Shown in pieces: positions 3,995-32,435 of a stretch of 33,839 nucleotides of DNA; positions within the stretch are counted from its first letter, which is position 1, and the number at the start of each line of letters is the position of its first letter. This DNA is from a virus. The translations under genes were made by a program, and so were the position numbers. The stretch is taken from the IMG/VR virus record IMGVR_UViG_3300044675_001340, positions 1 through 33,839 of that record; one strand, 5' to 3'. The notes beneath the pieces are model-generated. The model saw nothing but the letters and a program-made list of their open reading frames with translations, made no database searches and had not been told where the DNA came from.

Positions 3995-5656
3995 ATGGCA
4001 GTAACTAAAGAAATCGTCCTCGAAGTAGGGCTTAAAGACTCCACCGCACAAGGCACGGAATCCGCAAAGAAACGGCTCCGTGATTTACAACGTGCGCTCG
4101 TTGACCTTGCGGTTGCCGGGCAAGAGAACTCCGAAGAATTTCGGAAGTTAGAAGCCGAGGCAGGGGAACTATCCGACACCATTGGCGATGTTAGCCAAAG
4201 GGTCAAAAACCTTGGCTCGGACACCAAAAACATTGAGGCATTTACGCAAGCGGTCCAAGGCGTTGCTGCTGGCTTTCAAATCGCTCAAGGTGCTGCTGCT
4301 TTATTTGGCGAGGAAAACGAGGACATCCAAAAGGCTATGTTGCAGGTCAATGCGACCATGGCTATTGCCAACGGAATCCAGCAGGTAACGGTCCTCCTTC
4401 AAAAGGAATCGGCTATCTCAATGACGGCCAACAGGATTGCAACGGCCCTCTACGATAAGACGCTCAAAGGAACCATCGTAAGCCTTCGCCTCTTTAGGAC
4501 TGCATTGATTTCAACGGGTATTGGTGCAGCGATTGTTGGTGTTGGATTGCTTGTTGAGAATTGGGAAAAACTCACAAAGGTTGTCAAGGATTTCTTGGGC
4601 ATTGAAACGAAAGACCTCAAGGCCGTATCCGAATTAGCGCAAAGGCAGGTTGAACTTGCAGAGGCAAGAGGCGAAAGCGAGGCAAAGGTTCAGAATCTCT
4701 TGATGGCTGCTTATGACGCAAGGATTGCAGCAGCCGAGAAAGAAGAAGAGCGAGCGCAACTGATTCACGAGAAAGAGGTCGCAAGGCTGACTTATCAAAC
4801 CAAACTGCGAACCGATGCAATAGAAAAGCAGAAGAAAGATGCAGAAGATTTGAGGGCGATGGATTTGGCAGCCAGTCAAGAAGCCGAGAATTTTCGCTTG
4901 GCTAAGATTGGCAGGATAAACGATGAACTCGCAAGGGAAAAGGCTTTGAGAGATGAGAAACTTGCAATCCTTCGGGAAGAAAAGAAACAAAGGGAAGCAG
5001 ACCTCAAAAAGAGATTCACGGATTCGGACGAGTTTGCTAAAGCCTACATCCTGCTGACGGAGGAAATGCGACTTAAAGAGCAAGGCATTGCCGAGGATAG
5101 TGCAGACAAAATCTCGAAGATTGAACGCAATCGTAGGCAACAGGACTTGCAGATGGCATCAAATGCCGTTGGTGCGCTTGGTGATTTGTTGACCGCTGGC
5201 TTGGGCAAGTCCGAGAAAGACCAACGGAAAGCCTTTGAGATAAACAAGAAGGCCAGCATGGGTCAAGCCCTTATCAACACCTTCATGGCCGTAACCGCTG
5301 CCCTGACTGCTGGAGGGAACCCGATTAAACTCGCAACGGGTCGTCAATTTGTTGAAGCAGGCATCGCCCTTGCGACAGGTTTGGCGCAGGTCGCCAAAAT
5401 CAGTAAGACCCAATTCCAAGGCAGTTCGGCAAGTGGAGGCGGTGGAGCGTTGACTGCTGGAGGTGGTGGAGGCGGAGAGGTTGCACCTCCTCCCATCTTC
5501 GCAAACCCTCAAACAACTATGCTTGGAACCGATGGTGCTGCAATGGGCCAAGGCCAAGGCTCATCGCCTATGCGAGCCTATGTGGTCGAGAGGGACATCA
5601 CCCAAAGCACTCGGAGGGTTCGGAGGTTGGAGGAATTTGCAACTCTTGGAGCCTAA
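3995..5656 (+). CDS. Tape measure-like tail protein (553 aa)
   Basis: This alpha-helical protein has the composition of a tape measure. The N-terminal 60 or so residues are charged helix. A small-residue hydrophobic stretch near 165-185 (STGIGAAIVGVGLLV) follows, then a long highly charged coiled-coil region at about 205-385, and a C-terminal Ala/Gly-rich hydrophobic part ending in a Gly-rich run (GGGGALTAGGGGGG) near 490. Tape measure proteins fill the tail tube and set its length; at about 1.5 angstrom per residue this would give a tail near 80 nm, which is inference. The start lies 5 bases after the previous stop in an A-rich leader. It is short for the family and lies after, not before, the large tail proteins. 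Confidence 0.65.
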   Translation: MAVTKEIVLEVGLKDSTAQGTESAKKRLRDLQRALVDLAVAGQENSEEFRKLEAEAGELSDTIGDVSQRVKNLGSDTKNIEAFTQAVQGVAAGFQIAQGAAALFGEENEDIQKAMLQVNATMAIANGIQQVTVLLQKESAISMTANRIATALYDKTLKGTIVSLRLFRTALISTGIGAAIVGVGLLVENWEKLTKVVKDFLGIETKDLKAVSELAQRQVELAEARGESEAKVQNLLMAAYDARIAAAEKEEERAQLIHEKEVARLTYQTKLRTDAIEKQKKDAEDLRAMDLAASQEAENFRLAKIGRINDELAREKALRDEKLAILREEKKQREADLKKRFTDSDEFAKAYILLTEEMRLKEQGIAEDSADKISKIERNRRQQDLQMASNAVGALGDLLTAGLGKSEKDQRKAFEINKKASMGQALINTFMAVTAALTAGGNPIKLATGRQFVEAGIALATGLAQVAKISKTQFQGSSASGGGGALTAGGGGGGEVAPPPIFANPQTTMLGTDGAAMGQGQGSSPMRAYVVERDITQSTRRVRRLEEFATLGA

Positions 5657-5666
5657 CCACATTTAC
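5637..5666 (+). promoter_or_regulatory. Candidate promoter TTG-N19-ACATTTAC before the prohead protease
   Basis: TTTG at 5636-5639 is followed by exactly 19 bases and then ACATTTAC at 5659-5666, which ends 4 bases before the ATG at 5671. The same two boxes with the same spacing precede 9639 and 14001. The upstream box lies inside the end of the tape measure gene. The form resembles the Bacteroidota -33/-7 promoter (TTTG, TAnnTTTG) but differs in the second box. A start site this close to the ATG would give a leaderless or nearly leaderless transcript. Confidence 0.5.
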
Positions 5667-5670
5667 CTGC

Positions 5671-6264
5671 ATGGAACTACCCATATACCGAATGACCGTG
5701 GACGAGGTGGATGAAGGGGTCCAATTCGTGGCCCTGACCGATATGCCCGCCATTGAAAGGCCATTCCAAGCCTTCGCAAAGACACCACAAAAGTTCACCG
5801 AAACAGGCGAGCGGAGAGTGCTTACTGGCCCTCTCATGCTTGCAGACACGCCCATCTTTCGCAAGGACGAAACCTACGGAGAGTACTACGTCGTGTTTGA
5901 CAAAACCACCATCCGCAAGATAGTCCAAAAGTATTTCAAGCAAGGTAACCAGCACAACGTCAACGCTTACCACAATGCCGAACTGGATGGCGTGTTCATG
6001 TTCGAGTCCTACATCACCGACTCCGAGCGTGGCGTGATGCCTCCCAAAGGCTACGAGGACACACCCGACGGCTCTTGGTTCGGTTCCTTTAAGGTTGAGA
6101 ATGACGAGGTGTGGGACAACCGCAATCTATTCCGGGGTTTCTCCGTTGAGGGCCTTTTCGGGATGGACAAGACCGAATCCGAACTGGAGGTCGCACTCGC
6201 TGGCCTCGCTGACGAATTAACCGCTTTTTTGCAACAATTAACCCCCACCTACAAATCCCACTAA
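5671..6264 (+). CDS. Prohead protease, XkdF-like / S78_2 type (197 aa)
   Basis: The protein has the pattern of XkdF-like putative serine proteases: Gly-Pro-Leu-Met near residue 50 with a following Phe-Arg-Lys-Asp-Glu, then Asn-Val-Asn-Ala-Tyr-His-Asn near 105 (candidate catalytic His), then Pro-Asp-Gly-Ser-Trp-Phe-Gly-Ser-Phe-Lys-Val, and Arg-Gly-Phe-Ser-Val-Glu-Gly near 155 (candidate catalytic Ser). Such enzymes trim scaffold and capsid during head maturation. Its place directly before a scaffold-like gene and the major capsid gene fits. The ATG at 5671 is chosen because it follows the ACATTTAC box by 4 bases and begins the conserved sequence. Confidence 0.75.
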   Translation: MELPIYRMTVDEVDEGVQFVALTDMPAIERPFQAFAKTPQKFTETGERRVLTGPLMLADTPIFRKDETYGEYYVVFDKTTIRKIVQKYFKQGNQHNVNAYHNAELDGVFMFESYITDSERGVMPPKGYEDTPDGSWFGSFKVENDEVWDNRNLFRGFSVEGLFGMDKTESELEVALAGLADELTAFLQQLTPTYKSH

Positions 6265-6266
6265 CT

Positions 6267-6899
6267 ATGAACCTGAAAAACGCAATCGAATCCCTGCGGA
6301 CTGAACTCCGCAAATTCAGCACCCAAAAGCAGTCCTTCGCTGACTACAAACTCGTTGACGGCACCGTTGTCCGTGTTGATGGCGACCTCGTTGCCGGGAC
6401 TGCCGTTTACGTTGTAGCCGAAGAAGGCACGCTCCCTGCACCCGATGGCGAACACGTTGTTGAAGGCGTTGGTACAATCAAGACCGAAGGAGGCAAAATC
6501 GTTGAGGTCATCGCTGCCGAAGTCGCAACCCCCGAAATCGAAGCCTTGCCCGTTGCTGCTGAAATTACTCCGGAAGTGGCCGTTGAGGTTACCGAGGAAA
6601 TCAAAGAAGCCTATCCTGCGATGACGCCCGAAGTTGTGGAGGCCATTGTAGCCAAGCACCTCGGAGCCATCATGGAAGAACTCAAGGCAGCCTATGCCGA
6701 GATGGGAAAAATGAAGGAGAAAATGTCTGCATTCGCATCGCAGGTCGAAACCATGGCCGACATCGTTGAAAAAGTCAGCGAACTCCCAACCGAAGCACCC
6801 AAAGCAAGCGGTTCAGCAATCGTTGAGCAACGCAAGGCTGCTGCATCGCAGAACTTCAACGCTCTCGCACAAGCACTACAATCACTCAAAAAAAACTAA
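6267..6899 (+). CDS. Scaffold-like capsid assembly protein (210 aa)
   Basis: It lies between the prohead protease and the major capsid gene, the normal place of a scaffolding gene. The N-terminal part (about 1-35) is helical. Residues about 35-90 form a small beta-type module rich in Gly and Val (DGTVVRVDGDLVAGTAVYVV). After an acidic Ala/Pro/Glu linker, residues about 120-175 are a Met/Lys/Glu-rich coiled coil. The C-terminus is Gln/Lys-rich. No enzyme motif is visible. A scaffold role is inferred from position and composition. The small beta module is conserved-looking and may be a separate functional domain. Two bases separate it from the protease stop. Confidence 0.55.
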   Translation: MNLKNAIESLRTELRKFSTQKQSFADYKLVDGTVVRVDGDLVAGTAVYVVAEEGTLPAPDGEHVVEGVGTIKTEGGKIVEVIAAEVATPEIEALPVAAEITPEVAVEVTEEIKEAYPAMTPEVVEAIVAKHLGAIMEELKAAYAEMGKMKEKMSAFASQVETMADIVEKVSELPTEAPKASGSAIVEQRKAAASQNFNALAQALQSLKKN

Positions 6900-6920
6900 C
6901 CCCCTAAACCCCCACTAACC

Positions 6921-7856
6921 ATGGCATTTACTTTCACCAACCTTAGTTCGTATACCGACCAAGAGCGGTTACCACTAATCACCAAAGCGGTATTTTCCGC
7001 TCGGTCAGCATCTTTGTTCACCAAGCAGGTGGGCATCAAGTTCGCTGCAAACCTCAACCTAATGGACACCGATGCGGTGTTGCAAGGTGGAGACGCTTGC
7101 GGATACACAACTTCCGGCACAACCACAATCAGCGCAAGGGTCTTGACCGTTGGCCGCATGAAAGTGATGGAAACTTTGTGTCCTCGCTCCTTGGAGCAGT
7201 ATTGGACGCAGACCCAGTTGACTGCTGGTTCAATGTACGATGGCGTTCCTTTCGAGCAGGCGTTTGCCGAGCAGAAGGCTCTTCGCATTGCTGAGGCTTT
7301 GGAAACGGCAATTTGGCAGGGTAACGCTTACTTCAGCGGTATGCTTCAAATTTTGAACGCTGCTTCGGGTTCTACCATCAGCGGTAACACGGGTGCGGTT
7401 TCTGCCTCCGTTGGTATCACTTCATCGAATGTTATCGGCATCTTTGATAACATCTACAACCAAATCCCACAGGCCATCCTGACCAAGAACGACCTCGTAA
7501 TCTTCTGCGGTTGGAATAACTACCGCACCTTGGTTCAAGCCTTTAAGCAAGGAACGAATACAGGTGGTTTGGCAGTATTGTACAACCAAGTTGACCTTGC
7601 GAGCCTTGCTAATGGTGAGTTCATCTACCCCGGTACAAACGTCCGTGTCATCGCAGTTCCCGGATTGACTGGAACAAACCGAATCGTTGCATCTTACCTC
7701 GGCAACTTCTTCTACGGAACCGACTTGTTAAGCGACGAGGAGCAGTTCTCGATTTTTTATTCGAGGGACAACGACGAAGTACGGAGTATCGCAGCCTTCA
7801 AATGCGGGGTGCAACTGGCGTGGCCGGACTTGGTTGTTGACTTCCGCTTGACCTAA
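6921..7856 (+). CDS. Major capsid protein (311 aa)
   Basis: The length, position after protease and scaffold, and a strong terminator directly downstream all point to the major capsid protein. The N-terminus (Phe-Thr-Asn-Leu-Ser-Ser-Tyr) leads into a segment about Cys-Gly-Tyr and a central part with Leu-Cys-Pro-Arg-Ser-Leu-Glu-Gln-Tyr-Trp. The C-terminal part carries Asp-Glu-Val-Arg and Phe-Lys-Cys-Gly-Val-Gln-Leu-Ala-Trp-Pro. These resemble capsid proteins of Bacteroidota phages, presumably of the HK97 fold, though I cannot confirm the fold from sequence alone. The start is preceded by a C/A-rich leader without Shine-Dalgarno. Confidence 0.75.
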   Translation: MAFTFTNLSSYTDQERLPLITKAVFSARSASLFTKQVGIKFAANLNLMDTDAVLQGGDACGYTTSGTTTISARVLTVGRMKVMETLCPRSLEQYWTQTQLTAGSMYDGVPFEQAFAEQKALRIAEALETAIWQGNAYFSGMLQILNAASGSTISGNTGAVSASVGITSSNVIGIFDNIYNQIPQAILTKNDLVIFCGWNNYRTLVQAFKQGTNTGGLAVLYNQVDLASLANGEFIYPGTNVRVIAVPGLTGTNRIVASYLGNFFYGTDLLSDEEQFSIFYSRDNDEVRSIAAFKCGVQLAWPDLVVDFRLT

Positions 7857-7863
7857 TGTGTAG

Positions 7864-7892
7864 GGGGGAGGGAAACCTCCCCCTGCTTTTTT
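7864..7892 (+). terminator. Intrinsic terminator after the major capsid gene
   Basis: A perfect 8-bp stem (GGGGGAGG at 7864-7871, CCTCCCCC at 7876-7883) closes a GAAA tetraloop. It is followed by TGC and six T residues (7887-7892). It begins 8 bases after the capsid stop codon. This is a classical factor-independent terminator that would set the 3' end of the capsid mRNA. Confidence 0.9.
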
Positions 7893-7924
7893 GTTCTCTT
7901 GAAACTTAAAACCCAAATACACAT

Positions 7925-8455
7925 ATGTCCTGCTCCTTAACAACTGGCTACGCCCTCGGCTGCCGTGATTCCGTAGGTGGAATCAAAACAATTTATGTCC
8001 AATCCTTCATCCCAACGGGGTCCTGCAATGCCAACCTATCAGGTGCGGTAACGGGCTTCACGGGGTACGCTTCGGGTGGGTTCTTCGAGTATGACTTGAC
8101 CAAGGCCACTTCGTCTTTGACGGAAACCTTGAACGCAAGCATCGAGAACGGTTCAATCTACTACACCCCCGAAGTAACCTTCACCATCAACAAACTGCAA
8201 GTCGCAGTCCGCAACGAACTCCGCTTGCTGGTCCGCAACCGTGTCATCGTCATCGTCCAAGACAACAACAACCGCTACTGGTTGTTAGGCTCTGCCAACG
8301 GCTTGGAGGCAACCGCTGGAACCGCTGGAACTGGTACTGCCTTCGGGGATAGAAGTGGCTACGAGTTGACGCTTACCGGGATGGAACCTGACCCGATGTT
8401 CGTGATTGCATCCACAGTCTTTTCACCATCGACTGCACAGATACTCGGTTCGTAG
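7925..8455 (+). CDS. Putative tail tube or other virion structural protein (176 aa)
   Basis: This 176-residue protein has mostly beta-type patterning. The N-terminus contains Cys residues (MSCSLTTGYALGCRDS), the centre has a charged strand pair around Arg-Asn-Glu-Leu-Arg-Leu-Leu-Val-Arg-Asn-Arg, and the C-terminal part has Gly-Tyr-Glu-Leu-Thr-Leu-Thr-Gly-Met-Glu. The last motif resembles tail tube-type and similar structural proteins of Bacteroidota phages. It is bracketed by two intrinsic terminators (7864-7892 and 8494-8526), so it seems to form its own transcription unit or a readthrough unit with the capsid gene, as fits an abundant virion component. The tail tube assignment is inference. 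Confidence 0.5.
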   Translation: MSCSLTTGYALGCRDSVGGIKTIYVQSFIPTGSCNANLSGAVTGFTGYASGGFFEYDLTKATSSLTETLNASIENGSIYYTPEVTFTINKLQVAVRNELRLLVRNRVIVIVQDNNNRYWLLGSANGLEATAGTAGTGTAFGDRSGYELTLTGMEPDPMFVIASTVFSPSTAQILGS

Positions 8456-8493
8456 TATCTTCGCATCAGGTTTTCATCACTGAGGTTTGAGAG

Positions 8494-8526
8494 GGGCAGT
8501 CAGCAATGGCTGCCCTTCTTATTTTT
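8494..8526 (+). terminator. Intrinsic terminator ending 5 bases before the glycosyltransferase start
   Basis: The stem is GGGCAGTC (8494-8501) with GGCTGCCC (8508-8515), 8 bp including one G-U pair, with a 6-base loop. A T-rich tract (TTCTTATTTTT, 8516-8526) follows. The ATG of the next gene is at 8532, so the T tract almost touches the coding region. Confidence 0.85.
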
Positions 8527-8531
8527 ACCCC

Positions 8532-9608
8532 ATGAAGATTTGTATCGTTTACAACGCCCATCCAACCGGGTGCAGTTTCTACCGCCTTGAAATGCCGAAC
8601 GCATACCTTGGCGACAACTACCCGGAATTTGACTATGTGTGCGTTGAGAATATCACCACCATCAGCGACGAGGGATTGAAGTCCATTGACCTGTTCCTGT
8701 TCAGCCGGCTTTGGTGTCAGGGGACGATGGAGCAGGTGGAGAACGTCTACAAAGCCCTGACCCAATTCGGGGCCAAAGTCATCCTTGACTTGGACGACTA
8801 CTGGGTGCTTGAATCGGGCCACATCATGTATCGCCACTATCACCAAACCAAACTCGCAGAGGTCATCCGTAAGCACATCAAATTAGCCGATTGGGTTACC
8901 TGTACTACCGAGCATCTTGCTGCCCGCATACGGCCTCTAAATGCGAATGTGAGCATATTGCAGAACGAGCCTTACGAAGCGTATCAGCAATTCATTCCCA
9001 ACCCCGACGAAGAACCCGACAAGCACCTCGTCAAGTTCGGTTGGTTCGGTGGGGCGCAGCATGGAGAGGACATGGAGATGCTCCGTGAGGGGATGCAGAA
9101 ACTACGCTGGGACGCAAACCTTGACGGCAAGTACCGCCTCTACCTCGGAGGGTGGAACGACAACAACCCTGTCTATGAAGGCTATGAGAAAATAATCAGC
9201 GATCAAGGCAACAACCCGAACTACGGACGCATTCAGGCTGCTGACATCTATTCCTATGTGGGTGGCTACAACTTCGTGAACGTAACCCTTGCACCTTTGA
9301 GGGACACCAAGTTTAACAAACTCAAGTCCGAGTTAAAGGTCGTCGAGGCAGGGTGGATGAACAAGGCAATTATCGCATCCGAAACCATCCCCTACACGGA
9401 CGTAATCAAGCACGGAGAGAACGGGTTTCTTGTTCCTTACAACAAACCCAAGGACTGGTACAAGTATATCAAGCAGTTAATTCTTGACCCCGACCTGCGT
9501 AAGGGCTTGGCTGACAACCTCACGGCCGACATCAAAAAGCAGTTCAACGTGGTCGAAACCGCCAAGAAGCGGGCCGAGTTGTACAGGCAGATTGGGCGCA
9601 AATTGTGA
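8532..9608 (+). CDS. Glycosyltransferase, GT-B fold, group 1 (GT4)-like (358 aa)
   Basis: The protein starts Met-Lys-Ile-Cys-Ile-Val-Tyr-Asn, a Rossmann first strand. It has Leu-Asp-Leu-Asp-Asp-Tyr-Trp near 100. In the C-terminal half it has the group 1 pattern Glu-Leu-Lys-Val-Val-Glu-Ala-Gly, then Ala-Ile-Ile-Ala-Ser-Glu-Thr-Ile-Pro-Tyr, then His-Gly-Glu-Asn-Gly-Phe-Leu-Val-Pro. Such enzymes move a sugar from a nucleotide donor; the acceptor here is unknown. Its place among virion genes suggests glycosylation of capsid or fibre proteins, or alteration of the host surface, which is inference. ATG 8532 is preferred over upstream in-frame starts because those fall inside the terminator. Confidence 0.75.
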   Translation: MKICIVYNAHPTGCSFYRLEMPNAYLGDNYPEFDYVCVENITTISDEGLKSIDLFLFSRLWCQGTMEQVENVYKALTQFGAKVILDLDDYWVLESGHIMYRHYHQTKLAEVIRKHIKLADWVTCTTEHLAARIRPLNANVSILQNEPYEAYQQFIPNPDEEPDKHLVKFGWFGGAQHGEDMEMLREGMQKLRWDANLDGKYRLYLGGWNDNNPVYEGYEKIISDQGNNPNYGRIQAADIYSYVGGYNFVNVTLAPLRDTKFNKLKSELKVVEAGWMNKAIIASETIPYTDVIKHGENGFLVPYNKPKDWYKYIKQLILDPDLRKGLADNLTADIKKQFNVVETAKKRAELYRQIGRKL

Positions 9609-9632
9609 AATTCGGGGGCATCGCACATTTAC
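9603..9632 (+). promoter_or_regulatory. Candidate promoter TTG-N19-ACATTTAC before 9639
   Basis: TTG at 9603-9605, 19 bases, then ACATTTAC at 9625-9632, six bases before the ATG at 9639. The upstream part TTGTGAAATTC is shared base for base with the site at 13955. Both sites also end ACATTTACAA. The box overlaps the last codon and stop of the glycosyltransferase gene. Confidence 0.55.
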
Positions 9633-9638
9633 AAGCAG

Positions 9639-13427: not shown

Positions 13428-13469
13428 GCATGGGAGCGCATAAAAAAAACATACTGAAACTGCAGACTT

Positions 13470-13973
13470 ATGTCATGGATAAAAATCAAGCAAGCCCTGC
13501 TGGACCTTGCAAATGCTCATCCACAGGTCAACTCCTTCGGGACGGGCGACCCGCTTGCGGTAGGCACGGACAACACCATCAACCTGCGAACCCCAAGCCG
13601 TGAGCGAATCGTCTATCCGCTCGTTTTTGCGGACGTGCAGTCTGCAACTACTGACGCTGGGACTTTGGACCTTGTGGTCGGTGTCTATTTTAGCGACCGG
13701 GTGGAGTCCATCAAGCCGATGGGCGGAGTGGTTTCGGGCAGCCCTACGCTGGGTTGGCAGGATAACGAGGACGAGGTCCTAAGCGACCAACTGCAGGTAG
13801 CACAGGACTTCATATCAGCCCTCACAAACGACCCAAGCGAGGATTGGACCCTATCATCCAGCGTGAGCCTTACGAGGTTCGTGGAGAGCCGGGACGACCG
13901 CACGGCAGGGTGGCAGGCGACGATGACCTTTGAAATCCCCTACGGTCATTCAGTTTGTGAAATTCCGAGTTAA
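13470..13973 (+). CDS. Tail terminator / neck-type protein (167 aa)
   Basis: The N-terminal helix (Trp-Ile-Lys-Ile-Lys-Gln-Ala-Leu-Leu-Asp-Leu-Ala) is followed by an alternating beta region and a helix (Gln-Leu-Gln-Val-Ala-Gln-Asp-Phe-Ile). A final strand pair carries Asp-Asp-Arg-Thr-Ala-Gly-Trp-Gln-Ala-Thr-Met-Thr-Phe-Glu-Ile-Pro. This is the layout of phage tail terminator or tail completion proteins, which cap the tail tube at the neck. Position after the connector agrees. The assignment is by pattern and context. ATG 13470 begins the conserved-looking sequence; a competing frame from 13430 overlaps the start but looks like noise. Confidence 0.55.
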   Translation: MSWIKIKQALLDLANAHPQVNSFGTGDPLAVGTDNTINLRTPSRERIVYPLVFADVQSATTDAGTLDLVVGVYFSDRVESIKPMGGVVSGSPTLGWQDNEDEVLSDQLQVAQDFISALTNDPSEDWTLSSSVSLTRFVESRDDRTAGWQATMTFEIPYGHSVCEIPS

Positions 13974-13984
13974 AAGACATTTAC
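13955..13984 (+). promoter_or_regulatory. Candidate promoter TTG-N19-ACATTTAC before 14001
   Basis: TTTG at 13954-13957, 19 bases, then ACATTTAC at 13977-13984. The ATG at 14001 follows after 16 bases. The downstream flank gives an 18-base string, ACATTTACAATTAAACGC, that recurs exactly at 20386-20403. The upstream TTGTGAAATTC is shared with the site at 9603. Confidence 0.55.
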
Positions 13985-14000: not shown

Positions 14001-14276
14001 ATGCCTACACCCATATTGCAACAAATGCTCGGACAGGGCGGTACGATGGAGTTTATCAATGGATCCGTTACCGGGAAAAACTACGACTTCCTTGTAGTCA
14101 ACACCGCTGCCACATTTACAACCCTTACTGGAACTGGAAGTGAGAACCTGCTAACCGCTTACAACTTTTCGGGGGCTTCCATATCCGCTGGCATCGTAAT
14201 CAGCGGTCGCAATGGCGGCAAGATTACTGCGGTAACTCCAAGCGTCGGTTCGGTTATCGGTTTCACATTCCTGTAA
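14001..14276 (+). CDS. Small structural protein, possibly capsid or fibre decoration (91 aa)
   Basis: This is a 91-residue protein rich in Gly, Thr, Ser and Asn with alternating hydrophobic residues (Tyr-Asp-Phe-Leu-Val-Val-Asn, Gly-Ile-Val-Ile-Ser-Gly-Arg-Asn-Gly-Gly-Lys). It is probably all beta. I do not recognise a named family. It is the first gene after a strong candidate promoter and heads the cluster leading to the fibre gene, so it is likely a virion component made in quantity. Confidence 0.6.
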   Translation: MPTPILQQMLGQGGTMEFINGSVTGKNYDFLVVNTAATFTTLTGTGSENLLTAYNFSGASISAGIVISGRNGGKITAVTPSVGSVIGFTFL

Positions 14277-15872: not shown

Positions 15873-15874
15873 CG

Positions 15875-20099: not shown

Positions 20100-20365
20100 G
20101 TTACACCCCCCAACCCAACACCTTCACTTTGTTCGCCAACGACAAAGGCGACAACCCGAAACGCCCGGACTACCGAGGCGATGCGGTCCTGCCTGATGGC
20201 ACAAAGATGAAACTGTCATGCTGGCTCAAAGAATCAGCCAACGGCAAGAAGTTTTTGTCAGGTAAAATGGAGCCGATGCAAGAGCAGACCAGCGGTAAAG
20301 TAGAGCCGATTGACCAAAAGGCCAAAGAAAGCATGGAACACCAAGCACATGATTTGCCTTTTTAG
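20096..20365 (+). CDS. Candidate ssDNA-binding protein with SSB-like C-terminal tip (89 aa)
   Basis: The N-terminal 60 residues look like a small beta barrel: Phe-Thr-Leu-Phe-Ala-Asn-Asp-Lys-Gly, Tyr-Arg-Gly-Asp-Ala, Ser-Cys-Trp-Leu-Lys-Glu and Gly-Lys-Lys-Phe-Leu-Ser-Gly-Lys. A flexible polar linker follows, and the protein ends His-Asp-Leu-Pro-Phe. A terminal acidic-hydrophobic Asp-x-Pro-Phe is the hallmark of bacterial and phage SSB proteins, used to recruit replication partners. Position just before the initiator and helicase genes fits. It is shorter than a normal SSB and has no clear OB-fold signature, so the call is a candidate. Confidence 0.5.
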   Translation: MSYTPQPNTFTLFANDKGDNPKRPDYRGDAVLPDGTKMKLSCWLKESANGKKFLSGKMEPMQEQTSGKVEPIDQKAKESMEHQAHDLPF

Positions 20366-20385
20366 TGTAAATTTGCAGGCATACT

Positions 20386-20403
20386 ACATTTACAATTAAA
20401 CGC
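20386..20403 (+). promoter_or_regulatory. ACATTTAC box with 18-base string shared with 13977
   Basis: ACATTTACAATTAAACGC occurs here and exactly again at 13977-13994 in front of a structural gene. Unlike that site, no TTG stands 19 bases upstream here. A TAAATTTG (20368-20375) just upstream also fits TAnnTTTG. It is likely a promoter region for the initiator gene, whose start is about 100 bases downstream beyond a terminator hairpin. Confidence 0.4.
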
Positions 20404-23089: not shown

Positions 23090-23090
23090 G

Positions 23091-23120
23091 TTGCAAGTGT
23101 GGAATAGTTGTGTAGATTTG
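23091..23120 (+). promoter_or_regulatory. Bacteroidota-type promoter TTG-N19-TAGATTTG
   Basis: TTG 23091-23093, exactly 19 bases, then TAGATTTG 23113-23120, a full match to TTG-N19-TAnnTTTG. The ATG of the lipoprotein gene is only 4 bases further (23125), so the transcript would be leaderless or nearly so. Confidence 0.75.
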
Positions 23121-23124
23121 TTCC

Positions 23125-23316
23125 ATGGCCCGACTGCTACTGCTGCTCCTGATGACCGCTTGCACCAACGACCGCCCATGGAAGGTGATTGAGGTGCGGG
23201 CCAAGGGTAACGCCTGCGAGTACGTGCTATCCCGCTCCAACGGATTCGGGCCTCAAGTCAAGACCCTGACCGATTCGTGTGGTGCGTACAAACTATTTCA
23301 AACCTTAAGCCTATGA
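23125..23316 (+). CDS. Small lipoprotein (63 aa)
   Basis: The N-terminus is a short signal peptide with a lipobox: Leu-Leu-Leu-Leu-Leu-Leu-Met-Thr-Ala-Cys, giving a mature protein that starts at Cys13. The mature part is 51 residues with two more Cys (Asn-Ala-Cys-Glu-Tyr, Asp-Ser-Cys-Gly). It has its own strong promoter and sits in the early region. Phage lipoproteins may block superinfection at the envelope or serve as outer-membrane spanins; neither is shown here. It overlaps the next gene by ATGA. Confidence 0.65.
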   Translation: MARLLLLLLMTACTNDRPWKVIEVRAKGNACEYVLSRSNGFGPQVKTLTDSCGAYKLFQTLSL

Positions 23317-23516: not shown

Positions 23517-23523
23517 TACCCAA

Positions 23524-23603: not shown

Positions 23604-23612
23604 TCGATAACC

Positions 23613-23666: not shown

Positions 23667-23681
23667 CCAAACCCCAAACCG

Positions 23682-23921: not shown

Positions 23922-23932
23922 ACCCCAAACCC

Positions 23933-24085: not shown

Positions 24086-24087
24086 CC

Positions 24088-24273: not shown

Positions 24274-24282
24274 CGTATGACC

Positions 24283-25730: not shown

Positions 25731-25740
25731 CCCAAACAAA

Positions 25741-25911: not shown

Positions 25912-25927
25912 ACATAAAAGACTCACC

Positions 25928-26227
25928 ATGGACCTAATCTCACGCACCATCCTCGGCTATACCGCAGAGGTCGTCGGAGTCAGCCCGGACGACATCTTGA
26001 GCGAAGTCAAGACCCAAGAACTGGTCCTTGCTCGAAGCATCTTTGCCGACATCGCCTACTCGGAATACCTCTACACCTACTGCCAAATCGGGCGAATCAT
26101 CAAGAGGAACCACGCAACGGTCATGCACAACCTCGAAATCCTTGCGATAAACATGAGAGCAAGGCCCGACATCAAGTTTCTGCGTACACAGGTTTTAAAC
26201 AGGACACGGGATTTTTTGCAACATTAG
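25928..26227 (+). CDS. DnaA domain IV-like DNA-binding protein (99 aa)
   Basis: The whole protein resembles the C-terminal DnaA domain: Val-Val-Gly-Val-Ser-Pro-Asp-Asp-Ile-Leu-Ser-Glu-Val-Lys-Thr-Gln-Glu-Leu-Val-Leu-Ala-Arg near 15-36, Gln-Ile-Gly-Arg-Ile-Ile near 53-58, and Lys-Arg-Asn-His-Ala-Thr-Val-Met-His near 59-67, close to the DnaA signature (Arg-Asp-His-Thr-Thr-Val-x-His). No ATPase domain is present. It should bind DNA, perhaps DnaA-box-like sites in phage or host origin. It is free-standing, 16 bases after the microprotein. Confidence 0.65.
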   Translation: MDLISRTILGYTAEVVGVSPDDILSEVKTQELVLARSIFADIAYSEYLYTYCQIGRIIKRNHATVMHNLEILAINMRARPDIKFLRTQVLNRTRDFLQH

Positions 26228-26253
26228 GAAGAACCCCCGCCATCTTTGCGTGA

Positions 26254-26802
26254 GTGAACGCAGAGGCTACCATCCTTGACCTTTATCGCAGCGGAGAAAT
26301 CCGCAAGGCTTGCCTCACCATTACGGGCGGCAATCCGCTTTGGAAGGACCTCGAACAAGAGGTCGTCCTAATCCTACTGGAGAAGGACCCCGACAAGATT
26401 ACCAAGATGCAGGTCCAAGGCTACCTGCGTTTTTACATCGTTCGCCTCATCATGAACCTGTACCGGGGCAACAATAATCAATTTGCGAAGAAGTACCGAC
26501 ACCACGACGAGCGGGTCGAAGTAGATCCCGAAACCCAAGAAGAAGGCAAGGACTACGACTCCCTGCTGGACGACCTTTGGGCTATCGCCCAGCAAGAGAT
26601 GGACTCTTGGGCCAAGGACGGAGCCTTCCCGTACGACAAAGAACTGCTCAACCTGCTCATGCAGACCGGGAACATGAAGGCTATGAGCCGAGAAACGGGC
26701 ATCCCGTACAGGTCCATCATTTACTCAATCGAACAGGCCAAAGCCAAAATCAAAACCGCAATCGAGTCCAATGGATATACTGGTTTTTCCAATCCTGATT
26801 AG
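26254..26802 (+). CDS. Sigma-70-like transcription factor candidate (182 aa)
   Basis: The helical protein has Leu-Glu-Gln-Glu-Val-Val-Leu-Ile-Leu-Leu-Glu-Lys near 33-44 and Leu-Arg-Phe-Tyr-Ile-Val-Arg-Leu-Ile-Met-Asn-Leu-Tyr-Arg (region 2-like), an acidic middle, and a C-terminal HTH (Met-Lys-Ala-Met-Ser-Arg-Glu-Thr-Gly-Ile-Pro-Tyr-Arg-Ser-Ile) like sigma region 4. Similar small phage proteins are annotated as RNA polymerase sigma factors. It starts with GTG 26254; CATCTTTG (26241-26248), close to a -7 element, lies just upstream. It may direct late transcription, which is inference. Confidence 0.55.
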   Translation: MNAEATILDLYRSGEIRKACLTITGGNPLWKDLEQEVVLILLEKDPDKITKMQVQGYLRFYIVRLIMNLYRGNNNQFAKKYRHHDERVEVDPETQEEGKDYDSLLDDLWAIAQQEMDSWAKDGAFPYDKELLNLLMQTGNMKAMSRETGIPYRSIIYSIEQAKAKIKTAIESNGYTGFSNPD

Positions 26803-27288: not shown

Positions 27289-27733
27289 CGAAAGCAAAGA
27301 AGGCTTCATCGGTCGCTGCATGAGCAATAATCAAACCAATGCGGAGTTCCCCGATACGGCTCAGCGGTTGGCGGTTTGCGGCTCAACGTGGGAGAATCAC
27401 AAAAGGCAGCAATTCGAGTCTTATTCGGACTACGGCCAAGAGATTCGCTCTAATGCCAAGCGAGGGATAGAACTCAACGAACGCAACGGCAACAAGTGTG
27501 CCACGCAGACAGGCAAGGTCCGGGCGCAGCAGTTAGCCAACGGGGAAGCCATATCGGTCGAAACCATCAAGCGGATGCACTCCTACCTGTCCCGTGCTGA
27601 AACCTACTACGACAACGCAGACGATACCAGCGACTGCGGTTACATCTCATATCTCCTTTGGGGTGGAAAGTCTGCTCTCTCATGGTCAAGAAATAAACTC
27701 CGAGAACTTGGCGAACTCGAAGGCGAAGGATGA
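27263..27733 (+). CDS. Conserved phage protein with two modules (156 aa)
   Basis: The N-terminal module (about 10-48) reads Glu-Gly-Phe-Ile-Gly-Arg-Cys-Met-Ser ... Arg-Leu-Ala-Val-Cys, a pattern often found in phage head or packaging regions. The second module (about 62-150) has Asn-Ala-Lys-Arg-Gly-Ile-Glu-Leu-Asn-Glu, Gly-Lys-Val-Arg-Ala-Gln-Gln-Leu-Ala-Asn-Gly, Ile-Lys-Arg-Met-His-Ser-Tyr-Leu-Ser-Arg, and Tyr-Leu-Leu-Trp-Gly-Gly, resembling a widespread uncharacterised phage and plasmid domain. I do not assign a function. It lies two genes before the terminase small subunit. Confidence 0.6.
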   Translation: MPLPIPNNNESKEGFIGRCMSNNQTNAEFPDTAQRLAVCGSTWENHKRQQFESYSDYGQEIRSNAKRGIELNERNGNKCATQTGKVRAQQLANGEAISVETIKRMHSYLSRAETYYDNADDTSDCGYISYLLWGGKSALSWSRNKLRELGELEGEG

Positions 27734-27755
27734 CGAGGCACAGGTGCAGGCTCGG

Positions 27756-27896
27756 ATGGACTCGCTCATGATGGTCATCACCACCCTCTGCGACTGCATC
27801 GGAGCGGTGGACGAGTCCAATGCCCCGAACCAGTACGAAGTGAAAATGAAAATCGTAAACAAGATAAGCGACCTAATAGACAAAATCGAATACTAA
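27756..27896 (+). CDS. Small helical protein before the terminase genes (46 aa, start uncertain)
   Basis: The frame is open from 27594 but overlaps the preceding gene; ATG 27756 is the first ATG after that gene's stop, and a GTG at 27744 is another possible start. The product is helical (Met-Asp-Ser-Leu-Met-Met-Val-Ile-Thr-Thr-Leu ... Asn-Lys-Ile-Ser-Asp-Leu-Ile-Asp-Lys-Ile). Its stop shares one base with the terminase small subunit start (TAATG), supporting it as a real gene. Function unknown. Confidence 0.5.
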   Translation: MDSLMMVITTLCDCIGAVDESNAPNQYEVKMKIVNKISDLIDKIEY

Positions 27897-28309
27897 TGGC
27901 AGGCCGACCCCCAATTTGGAATACCCCCGAAGAACTATGGGAGGCGTTTGAACGATACCGAGCCGAGAACAAGGCCAACCCTTACCGGGTGCAGGACTAT
28001 GTCGGCAAGGATGGGAACATGGTTTACCGGGACAAAGAGCGTCCAATTACCTTTCGTGGCTTTGAGGGATACCTCGCAGAGAATGGGGTTTGCCATAATC
28101 TATCGCAGTATCGAAATGGAGATAGCGACCATCACAAGGAATTCTTATCAATCATTACACGCATAAGGCTGACCTGCGACAAGGATATGCTGGAGGGTTC
28201 AAGTGCCGGGGTTTACTCGGCCAACATTGCCTCTCGTCTGCTTGGCTTGGTTGACAAGCAGGAGAACACGGTCCACATCGAGCAACCCCTATTCCCCGAC
28301 AATGACTAA
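27896..28309 (+). CDS. terS: Terminase small subunit (137 aa)
   Basis: It lies directly before the large subunit, sharing the A of TAATG. The N-terminus (Gly-Arg-Pro-Pro-Ile-Trp-x-Thr-Pro-Glu-Glu-Leu-Trp-Glu-Ala-Phe) and the region Tyr-Arg-Asp-Lys-Glu-Arg-Pro-Ile-Thr-Phe-Arg-Gly-Phe-Glu-Gly-Tyr-Leu fit a small terminase family common in Bacteroidota phages. The C-terminal part has Gly-Val-Tyr-Ser-Ala-Asn-Ile-Ala-Ser-Arg-Leu-Leu-Gly-Leu. It should bind packaging-site DNA and recruit the large subunit. Confidence 0.8.
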   Translation: MAGRPPIWNTPEELWEAFERYRAENKANPYRVQDYVGKDGNMVYRDKERPITFRGFEGYLAENGVCHNLSQYRNGDSDHHKEFLSIITRIRLTCDKDMLEGSSAGVYSANIASRLLGLVDKQENTVHIEQPLFPDND

Positions 28310-29505
28310 TGCCGGTAAAAGAGCAGGAGAAGTTCATCCGAACCACGGCCGTAAATAAAGTCCGTGAGTTAAAGCGGTTCGTCAAAGGGGTACAAGGCGG
28401 TTCCAGTGCATCCAAGACGTATTCCATCCTTGCCGTTGAGATTGACTACTGCACCAAGAACCCGTACACGGAAACAAGCGTTGTAGCGGAATCCATCCCA
28501 CATCTGAAACGTGGGGCCATGAGGGACTTCATGAAGATTATGACCGTTACTGGGCGGTTCAATGCTGCCCGATGGAACGCCACCGACTTTCGGTATAAGT
28601 TCGCTAACGGGTCATACATCGAATTCTTTTCGGCTGACGATGATTCCAAGTTGAGGGGTGCAAGAAGGGACAGGCTTTACATGAACGAGGCCAACAACCT
28701 TTCCTTCCACGCTTACACGGAATTGGCAGCACGGACCAAGCAGTCGGTTATCCTTGACTGGAACCCTGTCAACGAGTTTTGGTTTCACTCCGAACTGATG
28801 CAAGACGAGGACGTGGACTTCCTCATTCTAACCTACAAGGACAACGAAGCCTGCCCCAAGAGTGCGAAGGACTTCATCGAGAAAGCAAGGGTCAAGGCTG
28901 AAACTTCGGAGTATTGGGCCAACTGGTACAAGGTCTATGGCCTTGGTCAGGTCGGGACGCTTCAGGGTGCGATATACGAGGACTTCGAGGTGGTGGAGGG
29001 TATAGATGTCAGCCGAGCCAAATTCGTCGCCCTTGGGCTTGACTGGGGCTTTAGCAACGACCCTACGGCCTTGGTCGCCATCTACCGCCAAGGGGACTGC
29101 CTGCTCATCCAAGAACTGCTCTACGCTACGGGCCTGACCAACCAAGACATCGCAGACAAGTTGCGGTCGCTGGGGATTACAAGGGCTTGGGAGATCGTGG
29201 CGGACTCTGCCGAACCCAAGAGCATCGAGGAAATCTATCGTCTTGGCTTTAACATCAAGCCGGCAGAGAAAGGCCCCGATTCGGTCAGGAACGGCATAGA
29301 CATCCTGAAACGCTACAAGTTGCAGGTAACCAAGGACTCGACCAACCTCATCAAGGAACTGCGGTCCTACACTTGGGCGACGGACAAAGAGGGGAAGAAC
29401 ACGGGGATCCCGATTGACTCCTTCAACCACGCCTGCGATGCGATGCGGTATGTGGCTCTCAACAAGTTAAGAGTAAGCAACTCAGGGAAGTATGTTGTGG
29501 TTTAA
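28309..29505 (+). CDS. terL: Terminase large subunit (398 aa)
   Basis: ATPase motifs: Walker A-type Gly30-Gly-Ser-Ser-Ala-Ser-Lys36-Thr37; Walker B-type Asp-Arg-Leu-Tyr-Met-Asn-Glu-Ala near 125; and Leu-Asp-Trp-Asn-Pro. The C-terminal nuclease domain begins at Ala-Leu-Gly-Leu-Asp-Trp-Gly-Phe-Ser-Asn-Asp-Pro near 240, with Val-Ala-Asp-Ser-Ala-Glu-Pro near 300 and Asn-His-Ala-Cys-Asp-Ala-Met-Arg-Tyr near 377. These match the Terminase_3 (PBSX-like) group. It drives DNA into the head and cuts concatemers. The length is normal or slightly short. Headful-type packaging would agree with the circularly permuted assembly. Confidence 0.95.
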   Translation: MPVKEQEKFIRTTAVNKVRELKRFVKGVQGGSSASKTYSILAVEIDYCTKNPYTETSVVAESIPHLKRGAMRDFMKIMTVTGRFNAARWNATDFRYKFANGSYIEFFSADDDSKLRGARRDRLYMNEANNLSFHAYTELAARTKQSVILDWNPVNEFWFHSELMQDEDVDFLILTYKDNEACPKSAKDFIEKARVKAETSEYWANWYKVYGLGQVGTLQGAIYEDFEVVEGIDVSRAKFVALGLDWGFSNDPTALVAIYRQGDCLLIQELLYATGLTNQDIADKLRSLGITRAWEIVADSAEPKSIEEIYRLGFNIKPAEKGPDSVRNGIDILKRYKLQVTKDSTNLIKELRSYTWATDKEGKNTGIPIDSFNHACDAMRYVALNKLRVSNSGKYVVV

Positions 29506-29514
29506 CTTTGAGGC

Positions 29515-29613
29515 ATGAACCCCGAACGCATCCTTGACCTGATCATCGAAATCGGGAAGACGGTTGCAGCCGTTTTCTTCATCATCACCCTTCTAACCCT
29601 GCTGCTTCAATGA
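29515..29613 (+). CDS. Single-pass membrane microprotein (32 aa)
   Basis: ATG 29515 lies 4 bases after TAACTTTG (29503-29510), a -7-like box that overlaps the terL stop; no TTG lies 18-21 bases further upstream. The protein is Met-Asn-Pro-Glu-Arg followed by a hydrophobic helix (VAAVFFIITLLTLLL). It overlaps the next small gene by ATGA. Function unknown. Confidence 0.45.
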   Translation: MNPERILDLIIEIGKTVAAVFFIITLLTLLLQ

Positions 29614-29744
29614 ACAAACATTACAAATTTGAACTGCATTGCGAGGCTGGCGTTTACTACGCTAACTCGCTGCTTGGCTTAATCCTTCAAGTCATTAGGC
29701 ATCGCTTTTGGCATTTGACGCATGATGGTGTTTGGATGGATTAG
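29610..29744 (+). CDS. Hypothetical small protein (44 aa)
   Basis: It starts in the stop of the microprotein (ATGA) and ends 1 base before the next ATG. The sequence includes His-Cys-Glu-Ala-Gly-Val-Tyr-Tyr-Ala-Asn-Ser-Leu and His-Arg-Phe-Trp-His-Leu-Thr-His. Tight packing on both sides supports it; no family is recognised. Confidence 0.45.
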   Translation: MNKHYKFELHCEAGVYYANSLLGLILQVIRHRFWHLTHDGVWMD

Positions 29745-29745
29745 T

Positions 29746-30399
29746 ATGAAAGTCGTTCACTATTACCACATCTACTGCGGTGGCAACTGGCAGTTGATAC
29801 TCAATCAGCACATGATGGCTGTGTGCAACTATGGCCTTATCAACATCTTGGATGAGATAAGGGTCGGCATTGTCGGTCCACCCGAACAACGCAAAGCGGT
29901 CAAGGAGGTGCTGGAGAACTCGATGGTGGCCGACAAGGTCAAGGTCGTAGTAACCCGGACGAATGCTTGGGAGCAGGCGACCCTTACCGAGATGTACCGG
30001 GCATCGCAGGAAGAGGAAGCCGTGTACCTGTACGCTCACACCAAGGGGGCTGCGAATCCATCCTTGACAACCCAACTTTGGGGCAGGTCCATGCTATTCT
30101 TCAACGTGGTTGCATGGGAGCGGTCCATGCAAATGCTGGAGGGTGTCGATGCGGTGGGATGCCATTGGATTACCAAGGAGCAGTTCCCTCACATGGCCGA
30201 TGCCAACAACCCCGAAGGCTACCCATACTTCGGTGGTAACTTTTGGTGGGCTAAGTCAAGCCACATCAAGGAACTCGGTGAACCTGCAAGGGACCATCGA
30301 TTCCGAGCAGAAACTTGGGTTGGCAAGAAACCCGACACCAAGGTCTTTGATTCCAACCCCGGCTGGCCTTCGCCTGAAAAATTCGTTGTAACTTTTTGA
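29746..30399 (+). CDS. Glycosyltransferase-like protein (217 aa)
   Basis: ATG 29746 begins Met-Lys-Val-Val-His-Tyr-Tyr-His-Ile-Tyr. The middle has Tyr-Leu-Tyr-Ala-His-Thr-Lys-Gly-Ala near 95-103, and then Gly-Cys-His-Trp and Gly-Gly-Asn-Phe-Trp-Trp-Ala near 164-170. This pattern is seen in phage and bacterial glycosyltransferases of uncertain class in which Tyr-x-His-Thr-Lys-Gly is conserved. It is first in a three-gene set with another glycosyltransferase and a methyltransferase. The sugar and acceptor are unknown. An upstream in-frame ATG (29722) would overlap the previous gene. Confidence 0.6.
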   Translation: MKVVHYYHIYCGGNWQLILNQHMMAVCNYGLINILDEIRVGIVGPPEQRKAVKEVLENSMVADKVKVVVTRTNAWEQATLTEMYRASQEEEAVYLYAHTKGAANPSLTTQLWGRSMLFFNVVAWERSMQMLEGVDAVGCHWITKEQFPHMADANNPEGYPYFGGNFWWAKSSHIKELGEPARDHRFRAETWVGKKPDTKVFDSNPGWPSPEKFVVTF

Positions 30400-30401
30400 G
30401 C

Positions 30402-31136
30402 ATGAAACTACTCGCAAACATCGCCTACCATCACAACCCCGAAAGGCTGCCAAACCTCATCCGGGTCATCGAGGCCATCAAGTCATATCCGGTGCAGGCC
30501 GATATCTTCGTGGACACCAACGACCCCGAAGTCGTGGGGCTACTTGCGGACCAACCCGTAACGGTTCATGCTCACACGCAACTCTCACACCCTTGGATGC
30601 TGACTGCGGTCCATCGCACTCGCATTAAGGAAACCTACAAGTACTTTGACTGGGTGGCCTACTTTGAGGACGACATGATGCTGCCCAAGGAGGGCTTCGT
30701 CAACTTCACGGAGCGGTTCGATTCGATGTTTGAGGATGGCTTGTACCCGTCCTTCACTCGCATTGAAACCTACGACGACAAGGAAGGCGAATGCACTCCC
30801 GACGTGAACGAGGTTCTGCCAAGTTCGGTTTGGTGTCAGTACAACGGCAAGGACTATGTGAGCCTGCCCTTCTTCATCAACTACCACGCTTTTTGGATGT
30901 TCAGCGTCAAGAGGCTCAAGGAGGTCCTGACCCGTAATCCGGGCGAACTTGACCACATCCCGAACAACGGCCTTTACCGGGAAAGCCTTGCCTCTTTCCC
31001 AATTTGGTCATTGAATCTAAAGCCTATGCTGGAGTTCACGGAGCAGGGCGAACTTGCGGACCATTGCAAGGTCTTCCACCTAACGAACAACTACAAGCAC
31101 GGAAGCACCAACATTAAAACCCTGTTTAAGAGATGA
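30402..31136 (+). CDS. Glycosyltransferase-like protein, GT-A type (244 aa)
   Basis: The N-terminus is a nucleotide-sugar-type strand-helix (Leu-Leu-Ala-Asn-Ile-Ala-Tyr-His). Near residue 88 there is Val-Ala-Tyr-Phe-Glu-Asp-Asp-Met-Met-Leu, the position and form of the Asp-x-Asp metal site of GT-A enzymes. Aromatic residues line the C-terminal half. ATG 30402 follows the previous stop by 2 bases; the upstream TTG in frame is less likely. The stop overlaps the methyltransferase start by ATGA. It may glycosylate a virion or cell-surface component. Confidence 0.6.
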   Translation: MKLLANIAYHHNPERLPNLIRVIEAIKSYPVQADIFVDTNDPEVVGLLADQPVTVHAHTQLSHPWMLTAVHRTRIKETYKYFDWVAYFEDDMMLPKEGFVNFTERFDSMFEDGLYPSFTRIETYDDKEGECTPDVNEVLPSSVWCQYNGKDYVSLPFFINYHAFWMFSVKRLKEVLTRNPGELDHIPNNGLYRESLASFPIWSLNLKPMLEFTEQGELADHCKVFHLTNNYKHGSTNIKTLFKR

Positions 31137-31666
31137 AACAACTCGACGCTTTACGCAACACCCCACGGATGTACTTCCTGCCCATCGACTACCATTCGGG
31201 CAACAACCGGGTGGACGGCCTCATTGACCTTTGTCAAAAGTACCTCAAGCCTACGGACAAGTGCGTGGAAGTCGGTTCGTTTTCGGGGGTGAGCAGTCAG
31301 GTCATCGCCCTGCATTGCGGAGAACTGCATTGCGTTGATACGTGGGACTTCGGTGGCACGATGCCAGCCGAGCAGATGTTCGACCTAATGCACTTGAATT
31401 ACCCCAACATAGCCAAGGTCAAAGCAACAAGCATCGAAGCGTCCAAGCAGTATGCCGATGGATCCCTTGACTTTGTTTACATTGACGCTGACCATTCCTA
31501 CGATTCGGTCCTTGCAGACATCAACGCTTGGAAGCCCAAGGTCAAGCCGGGCGGTTACATTGCGGGCCACGACTCCTATATGCCCGAAGTTCTAAAGGCG
31601 GTCATGGACTGCCTCGGTGAACCCTTGCAGTACTTCACCGACACCTCTTGGATTGTCAAGTTATGA
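31133..31666 (+). CDS. Class I SAM-dependent methyltransferase (177 aa)
   Basis: Motif I Cys-Val-Glu-Val-Gly-Ser-Phe-Ser-Gly-Val-Ser-Ser near 44-55, an acidic end of strand 2 (Cys-Val-Asp-Thr-Trp), then Phe-Val-Tyr-Ile-Asp-Ala-Asp-His-Ser-Tyr near 115-124, and Pro-Gly-Gly-Tyr-Ile-Ala-Gly-His-Asp. This is the Methyltransf_24-type pattern found in sugar or small-molecule methyltransferases. With two glycosyltransferases before it, O-methylation of a transferred sugar is a sensible inference. It overlaps both neighbours by ATGA. Confidence 0.75.
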   Translation: MKQLDALRNTPRMYFLPIDYHSGNNRVDGLIDLCQKYLKPTDKCVEVGSFSGVSSQVIALHCGELHCVDTWDFGGTMPAEQMFDLMHLNYPNIAKVKATSIEASKQYADGSLDFVYIDADHSYDSVLADINAWKPKVKPGGYIAGHDSYMPEVLKAVMDCLGEPLQYFTDTSWIVKL

Positions 31667-32232
31667 AACTCCAAGACCTCACCATTGACCAGTTCCAACG
31701 CATCGGAGCCATTGAGTTCTCCAGCGTCCTCGGGGACTACGACAAGCGTGCAGGAGTCGTTGCAATCGTTGAGGGGGTGGATATATCGTTCGTGAGAGAA
31801 ATGCCCGCCAAGGCAGTCCTAAAGCGTTACAAGGCCATCATAAGCGAGTGGAACGCATTGCCTGCATTGGGGTACAAGCGAAAGTTCAAAGCCGGGGGCA
31901 AGTGGTGGATTCCAACGGTGTTCACGGACGAGTTGACGGCGGGGCAGTTGATTGAACTCATGGACGCAAACACGACCGACGAAAAGCAACTGCTCCAAAA
32001 CCTACACCGAATCATGGCGACCTTGTGCAGGGAAGGCGGTCTATTCGGATATTTCCCCAAGAAATACGACGGAGCTGCCCATGCGGAGCGAGCCGAACTC
32101 ATGAAGAAGCACGCCAAGGTGGGCGATGTTTGGGGGGTTGTCAGTTTTTTTTTGCTAAGTTCCGAATCCTACTTGAAAGTTTTGAGCGACTATTCCAAGC
32201 ACCTGATGAAGACGGCAGGGGAGTTGACGTAA
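31663..32232 (+). CDS. Tail assembly chaperone, short form (gpG-like, 189 aa)
   Basis: ATG 31663 overlaps the methyltransferase stop. The protein begins Met-Lys-Leu-Gln-Asp-Leu-Thr-Ile-Asp-Gln-Phe-Gln-Arg and has Trp-Trp-Ile-Pro-Thr-Val-Phe near 83-89 and Leu-Met-Asp-Ala-Asn near 102-106. Tail assembly chaperones of Bacteroidota phages have this type of N-terminal layout, and the gene lies at the head of the tail cluster. They bind the tape measure protein during tail assembly. A run of nine T near its end gives a -1 shift to a longer form (next entry). Confidence 0.6.
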   Translation: MKLQDLTIDQFQRIGAIEFSSVLGDYDKRAGVVAIVEGVDISFVREMPAKAVLKRYKAIISEWNALPALGYKRKFKAGGKWWIPTVFTDELTAGQLIELMDANTTDEKQLLQNLHRIMATLCREGGLFGYFPKKYDGAAHAERAELMKKHAKVGDVWGVVSFFLLSSESYLKVLSDYSKHLMKTAGELT

Positions 32233-32408
32233 GCCCTCTTGCTGGGTACGGTTGGCTCATGGTCGTCTGGCGGATGGCCAACAAGGACGTTCTCAAGTTT
32301 GATGCCATCTTCGCAATGAAGGCGGTGGAGTTCTTGAATTACGCCCTGCTGATTCACGACATCTTGGAAGCAGAGAGGATGGAGGCGGAGCGAGCAAGGC
32401 GCAGATAG
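31663..32408 (+). CDS. Tail assembly chaperone, predicted -1 frameshift product (gpGT-like, about 248 aa)
   Basis: Slippage at T-TTT-TTT (32145-32151) moves ribosomes to the -1 frame, which stays open to TAG at 32406-32408. The product keeps 163 residues of the short form and adds about 85. The added part contains Gly-Tyr-Gly-Trp-Leu-Met-Val-Val-Trp-Arg-Met-Ala-Asn, then Lys-Phe-Asp-Ala-Ile-Phe, then Tyr-Ala-Leu-Leu-Ile-His-Asp and a charged C-terminus. The sequence from 32233 to 32408 has no other gene, and reads as coding in this frame. A -1 shift between two tail chaperone forms is the rule in lambda-like phages. Confidence 0.65.
32145..32151 (+). promoter_or_regulatory. Programmed -1 ribosomal frameshift site (T-TTT-TTT)
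   Basis: In the chaperone frame the codons read AGT TTT TTT TTG, giving the canonical heptamer T-TTT-TTT in the middle of a nine-T run (32145-32153). The -1 frame continues as TTT GCT AAG TTC and stays open for about 85 codons. I looked for but did not resolve a clear stimulatory structure downstream. Sequencing errors in the T run could also create such a shift. Confidence 0.6.
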
Positions 32409-32435
32409 ACACATTCCAGCACGGGGGACATTTAC
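32406..32435 (+). promoter_or_regulatory. ACATTTAC box before the tail completion gene
   Basis: ACATTTAC at 32428-32435 ends 4 bases before the ATG at 32440, as at 5659. The base triplet 19 bases upstream is TAG (32406-32408, the stop of the chaperone extension) rather than TTG, one mismatch from the other sites. Confidence 0.4.

Follow-up and report, generated by a model that had tools for sequence, protein, structure and literature searches.

The window (the whole stretch analysed, positions 1 to 33,839 of virus record IMGVR_UViG_3300044675_001340) carries a conserved two-part signal in front of a few of its genes, and it is near certain that this signal is a promoter. The reading that we prefer, at a probability of roughly 70%, is that these are late promoters read by the host core polymerase carrying an ECF-like sigma factor of the phage and that the late mRNAs start at or near the AUG.

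The virus and its probable host

The window virus is a freshwater siphovirus that encodes a tape measure, an S78 protease, a portal, tail proteins, a spanin and an amidase, as well as a DnaB helicase, a methyltransferase and the small and large terminase. It has hundreds of relatives among viral contigs. The relatives with names that stand nearest to it infect Flavobacterium (terminase 47%) and Nonlabens/Persicivirga (portal 27%, protease about 31%), and the host is therefore likely to belong to the Bacteroidota. The two ends of the window, 1-743 and 32744-33486, are 87.7% identical, the last part of the gene that follows site S4 (below) and the first part of its neighbour occurring a second time in diverged form. 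Since the relatives that were compared have one matching region only, this repeat probably arose because the genome is circularly permuted and its assembly, which combines two strains, wraps around.

A two-box motif before late genes

The sequence-only reading had reported identical copies of TTG-N19-ACATTTAC at 5637-5666, 9603-9632 and 13955-13984, and these are exact in the window, all on the + strand, where 0.01 are expected from dinucleotide shuffles. The near match that it placed at 32406-32435 is present as TAG-N19-ACATTTAC, the TAG being the codon at which the preceding ORF stops, and the longer strings TTGTGAAATTC and ACATTTACAA that it described as common to two of the sites were found at the second and third. 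The first box is better written as T[TA]GNNA[AC] than as TTG, and the refined motif, T[TA]GNNA[AC]-N14/15-ACATYTAC, includes the fourth site. The four sites, read as promoters, are:

5637-5666, + strand, promoter S1; box 1 TTGCAAC at 5637-5643, box 2 ACATTTAC at 5659-5666, ending 4 nt before ATG 5671 (protease gene)
9603-9632, + strand, promoter S2; box 1 TTGTGAA at 9603-9609, box 2 at 9625-9632, ending 6 nt before ATG 9639
13955-13984, + strand, promoter S3; box 1 TTGTGAAATTC at 13955-13965, box 2 at 13977-13984, ending 16 nt before ATG 14001
32406-32435, + strand, promoter S4; box 1 TAGACAC at 32406-32412, box 2 at 32428-32435, ending 4 nt before ATG 32440

T[TA]GNNA[AC]-N14/15-ACATTTAC has four matches in the window, every one of them just before a start codon, and none on the other strand. 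The shuffle mean of 0.005 for this form is descriptive because the sites themselves served to define that form, and the relatives are the actual test. Allowing one mismatch at N15 gave no extra site in the window, and the ACATTTAC octamer alone, with one mismatch, was not enriched (28 in the window versus 23 expected); copies of it at 14112 and 27200 lie within coding sequence. It is the two-box arrangement, and not the octamer alone, that matters.

All four sites had been placed in front of virion genes. This is borne out for gene 5671, which encodes a phage protease of the S78 type (Pfam 1.3e-10), whereas genes 9639, 14001 and 32440 are candidate virion genes by their position within the virion gene block, which has portal, tail and tape-measure matches. 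Midway through this block, at 8487-9608, lies a gene for a group 1 glycosyltransferase, with TTG as its listed start. Between genes 6921-7856 and 7925-8455 there is a GC-rich terminator-like hairpin with a T run (7857-7924), and the late motif is absent after it.

Conservation among relatives

In 15 long records of related viruses the refined motif has 41 matches, all on the late (+) strand and all before an ATG, and ACATTTAC occurs 79 times on the + strand and 0 times on the - strand. When all fetched family loci were taken together, 109 of 109 distinct motif contexts were followed by an ATG within 25 nt, these contexts being non-independent as they come from related sequences. Outside the family, TTGCAACV-N13-15-ACATTTAC and TTGTGAAB-N13-15-ACATTTAC, which served as a negative control, were found in unrelated viruses and were almost always intragenic; the motif is therefore specific to the family. 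An equal frequency inside genes or in shuffled sequence, which would speak against a promoter, was clearly not what was observed. The motif was not found in the first half of FPSV-S2, and an Rfam search gave no match.

Five gene contexts share the motif, namely S1 to S4 of the window and S6, which occurs in relatives before genes whose proteins begin MGLFRR or MRLFRK. At S1 the box is present in 47 of 49 distinct upstream haplotypes, with N15 in 25 and N14 in 22, so the spacing of exactly 19 that was claimed from the three window sites, and that is true of them, becomes 18-19 in the family. At S4 box 2 is kept 4 nt before the ATG in 40 of 40 distinct upstream haplotypes; box 1 is poorly conserved there, the kept part being GACAC, and the genes that follow differ in their N-termini between records (METT... 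versus MEFN/D...). S6 is kept in part, with the box in 18 of 62 distinct upstream haplotypes.

At S3 both boxes are constant and 15 nt apart in 78 of 82 haplotypes, the remaining 4 differing by reading ACATTTAT, while among the relatives the spacer sequence drifts and the distance from box 2 to the ATG varies from 14 to 22 nt. Box 1 of S3 overlaps the 3' tail of ORF 13470-13973, and a count of synonymous sites, for which sequences were chosen by orthologous gene starts and amino-acid patterns, showed that its codons TGT, GAA and ATT are invariant in 108 of 108 haplotypes, silent positions included, whereas nearby codons (CAY, TCN, CCN) are spread across two to five synonyms. Both boxes are under purifying selection. 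The fixed boxes and spacing and the frozen silent sites show that selection acts on the DNA, on the two boxes and their spacing, which points to a DNA promoter and neither to a ribosome signal nor to leftover coding sequence.

This bears directly on the idea that ACATTTAC is a translation-initiation or mRNA-leader signal that aids ribosomes near the AUG in a phylum without Shine-Dalgarno sequences. Box 2 does end exactly 4 nt before the ATG at S1, S4 and S6, and most records also have ACATTTAC some 10 nt beyond a host-type box at 20386. Such a signal would be tied to the ATG and not to box 1, yet at S3 it is the distance to box 1 that box 2 keeps, the ATG being 14-22 nt away, and box 1 lies inside the preceding gene with its silent sites frozen. 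We give this idea hardly any credence. Only slightly more credible, and still very improbable, is that the motif serves a phage regulator as its operator, or joins gene modules as a conserved recombination linker, and is not the promoter itself. In favour of this, S2 and S3 carry imperfect inverted repeats, TTGTGAAAT and ATTTACAA, and S4 precedes genes with different N-termini in different records. Against this, S1, S4 and S6 have no inverted symmetry, the orientation of the sites is always the same, box 2 stands at the -10/-7 position relative to the start codon, and two fixed boxes with a spacer that drifts between them are more than a linker would need. The best reading of contexts that all precede an ATG (109 of 109), with their boxes fixed and their spacer drifting, is a class of late promoters specific to the phage, as had been proposed from the window.

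Comparison with host sigma-A promoters

In F. johnsoniae the -7 element of sigma-A promoters is TAnnTTTG, in which T-12, A-11, T-8, T-7, T-6 and G-5 are near-invariant, and the -33 element is weak (PMC6847099). The window has boxes of this type before genes that are not late, and one of them serves here as the comparison class:

23113-23120, + strand, host-type box TAGATTTG, 4 nt before ATG 23125

The late motif might thus be a degenerate host sigma-A promoter, with TTG at -33 and xACATTTA in place of TAnnTTTG, used by unmodified host polymerase and possibly an activator. Its spacing is similar to that of Bacteroidota sigma-A promoters, TTTG / TAnnTTTG (PMC6847099, PMC9723704), its distance from the ATG is that of the phage's own TAnnTTTG sites, some of which lie 3-4 nt before an ATG, and A-11 and the TTT of the -7 box are kept. 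T-12, however, is variable, and A stands in place of G-5 both in the window sites and in nearly all relatives, although both positions are near-invariant in F. johnsoniae; with two of the six near-invariant positions lost, the late motif is not the host TAnnTTTG box, in agreement with the distinction that was drawn originally. The upstream box also differs, being strongly conserved here with its silent sites frozen, whereas the -33 element is weak in F. johnsoniae. We therefore consider a degenerate sigma-A promoter unlikely.

A candidate phage sigma factor

Under the preferred reading the phage would supply its own sigma factor, for which there is one candidate:

26254-26802, + strand, candidate phage ECF-like sigma factor, 182 amino acids, GTG start, upstream of the terminase genes
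26241-26248, + strand, host-type -7 box CATCTTTG, 5 nt before the GTG of the candidate

In BLASTP the 26254-26802 protein matched gp33 of Nonlabens phage P12024S at 2e-5 over sigma region 2, and gp33 is annotated as having sigma-70 region 2, which was reproduced here (PF04542, 1.4e-5). Over both domains, a profile of the gp33 group matched 13 ECF sigma factors of one Bacteroidales genome (97.8%, E 7e-13). With the window-family profile alone the match to the Bacteroidales ECF sigma factors was weak (2%, score 19.6 versus a null maximum of 16.4), the alignment being nearly full length and in register, and a joint profile of the window family and the gp33 group matched at 94.7%. The AF2 model of the protein is of modest confidence (mean pLDDT 61; 73-89 by block in the first 70 residues) and has two helical segments. 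Its Foldseek matches in the PDB were mostly sigma factors, the best being the ECF sigma L 6dv9 (E 0.016, prob 0.94), and a viral library gave a match (1.2e-4) to a protein named for its sigma-70 region 2. By itself the protein gave no sigma match in Pfam or in a PDB profile search by sequence, and no match in a phage-database search. Taken together, the profile and model comparisons indicate that the product is likely to be a divergent ECF-like sigma factor. Its gene is present in 13 of the 15 long records, and the two records that do not have it are partial (20,933 and 18,395 bases). Gene 27263 was also considered as a sigma gene and was ruled out, as it has no similarity to gp33. At the position of the CATCTTTG box one relative reads TACCTTTG. 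Just upstream of the candidate, 25928-26227 encodes a small protein that matches the C-terminal helix-turn-helix of DnaA (PF08299, 4.5e-11).

The parallel system of phage P12024S

The usual ECF promoter layout is AAC-N16/17-CGT. P12024S has seven sites of the form AAAACA-N15/16-CGTTA on its + strand, each with the CGT 11-12 nt before an ATG, and similar sites occur in its relatives:

145, 2997, 5378, 21247, 23928, 25167 and 26768 of P12024S (L532), + strand, AAAACA-N15/16-CGTTA sites, each before an ATG

An AAC-type -35 about 16-17 nt from the -10 is thus found in P12024S. In the window family box 1 has GCAAC at S1 and S6, but TGAA at S2 and S3 and ACAC at S4, and box 2 is ACATYTAC, without the classical CGT of an ECF -10, which is found only in the P12024S group. 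A motif presumed to be that of an ECF sigma, an alternative sigma of a related host group, has been described in Flavobacterium psychrophilum SM6 with CGT in the -10 region (PMC9723704); it resembles the P12024S motif and differs from box 2 of the window, which has no CGT. P12024S and the window virus nevertheless have homologous sigma candidates and a -10-like box equally far before the ATG, box 2 of the window family starting 12 nt before it at S1, S4 and S6, while the motifs differ, AAAACA-N15/16-CGTTA in one and T[TA]GNNA[AC]-N14/15-ACATYTAC in the other. Homologous sigma candidates with different motifs in the same place would be expected if sigma and promoter had diverged together, and this may be what happened between the branches, as judged from these two phage groups only.

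Proposed mechanism and its relation to known systems

In the mechanism that we propose, box 1, T[TA]GNNA[AC], would lie at about -34 and box 2, ACATYTAC, at about -12 to -5, with 14-15 nt between them, and both would be read by the host core RNA polymerase with the 26254-26802 product, which would itself probably be expressed earlier, from a host-type promoter. The late promoters are likely, on these sequence comparisons, to depend on the phage sigma; that the 26254 product is the one that reads the motif, as well as the timing and the transcript starts, is what we infer from the same material. Most late mRNAs would begin at or within a few nt of the AUG, and so be leaderless or nearly so, since the gap between the end of box 2 and the start codon is usually 4-6 nt. 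In probable promoters of F. johnsoniae there are 4-5 nt from the -7 box to the start site (PMC6847099). If box 2 acts like a -7 box, the mRNAs of S1, S4 and S6 would start at about the A of the AUG, that of S2 no more than about 3 nt away, and that of S3 would have a short leader of roughly 10-18 nt. Leaderless mRNAs are uncommon in the host phylum, making up 5.5% in F. psychrophilum (PMC9723704), and if the proposal is true then leaderless late transcripts would perhaps favour phage translation late in infection.

Phage sigma factors with cognate late promoters are already known, since in phiEco32 and 7-11 a phage-encoded sigma has dedicated middle and late promoters (PMC4331800). The window virus is like them in having a sigma candidate in a small phage, a few well-conserved promoters before structural genes and host-type promoters elsewhere, and a conserved low-copy motif does stand before its structural gene block. 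It differs in that phiEco32 and 7-11 have enterobacterial hosts and an extended -10 such as tAATGTAtA, whereas the window has two boxes and a Bacteroidota-type host, and unlike theirs its boxes abut the start codon and its sigma is too divergent for Pfam. The version in a Bacteroidota phage is new, as no description of a late promoter of a Bacteroidota phage was found in the open-access literature searched. A broader idea, which we put forward tentatively and at somewhat less than even odds, is that one lineage of Bacteroidota phages possesses a dedicated sigma, ECF-like and diverging fast, with promoters that abut the start codon and mostly leaderless late transcripts, sigma and promoter having changed together. 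What the analysis provides is a defined motif with a candidate sigma, and a leaderless model that can be tested, for a group of freshwater phages that is very abundant (hundreds of contigs) and for which the cultured relative Nonlabens phage P12024S is a parallel system open to testing, and possibly an orthogonal pair of sigma and promoter for Bacteroidota genetics.

Host-type boxes near start codons

The TAnnTTTG boxes at 23113-23125 and 29503-29515 are exactly 4 nt before an ATG, which suggests that host-type promoters of the phage may have leaderless starts too. At 20351-20393, upstream of the replication genes, most of the long records have a conserved TTTTAGTGTAAATTTG followed about 10 nt on by ACATTTAC, a host-type box paired with the late octamer.
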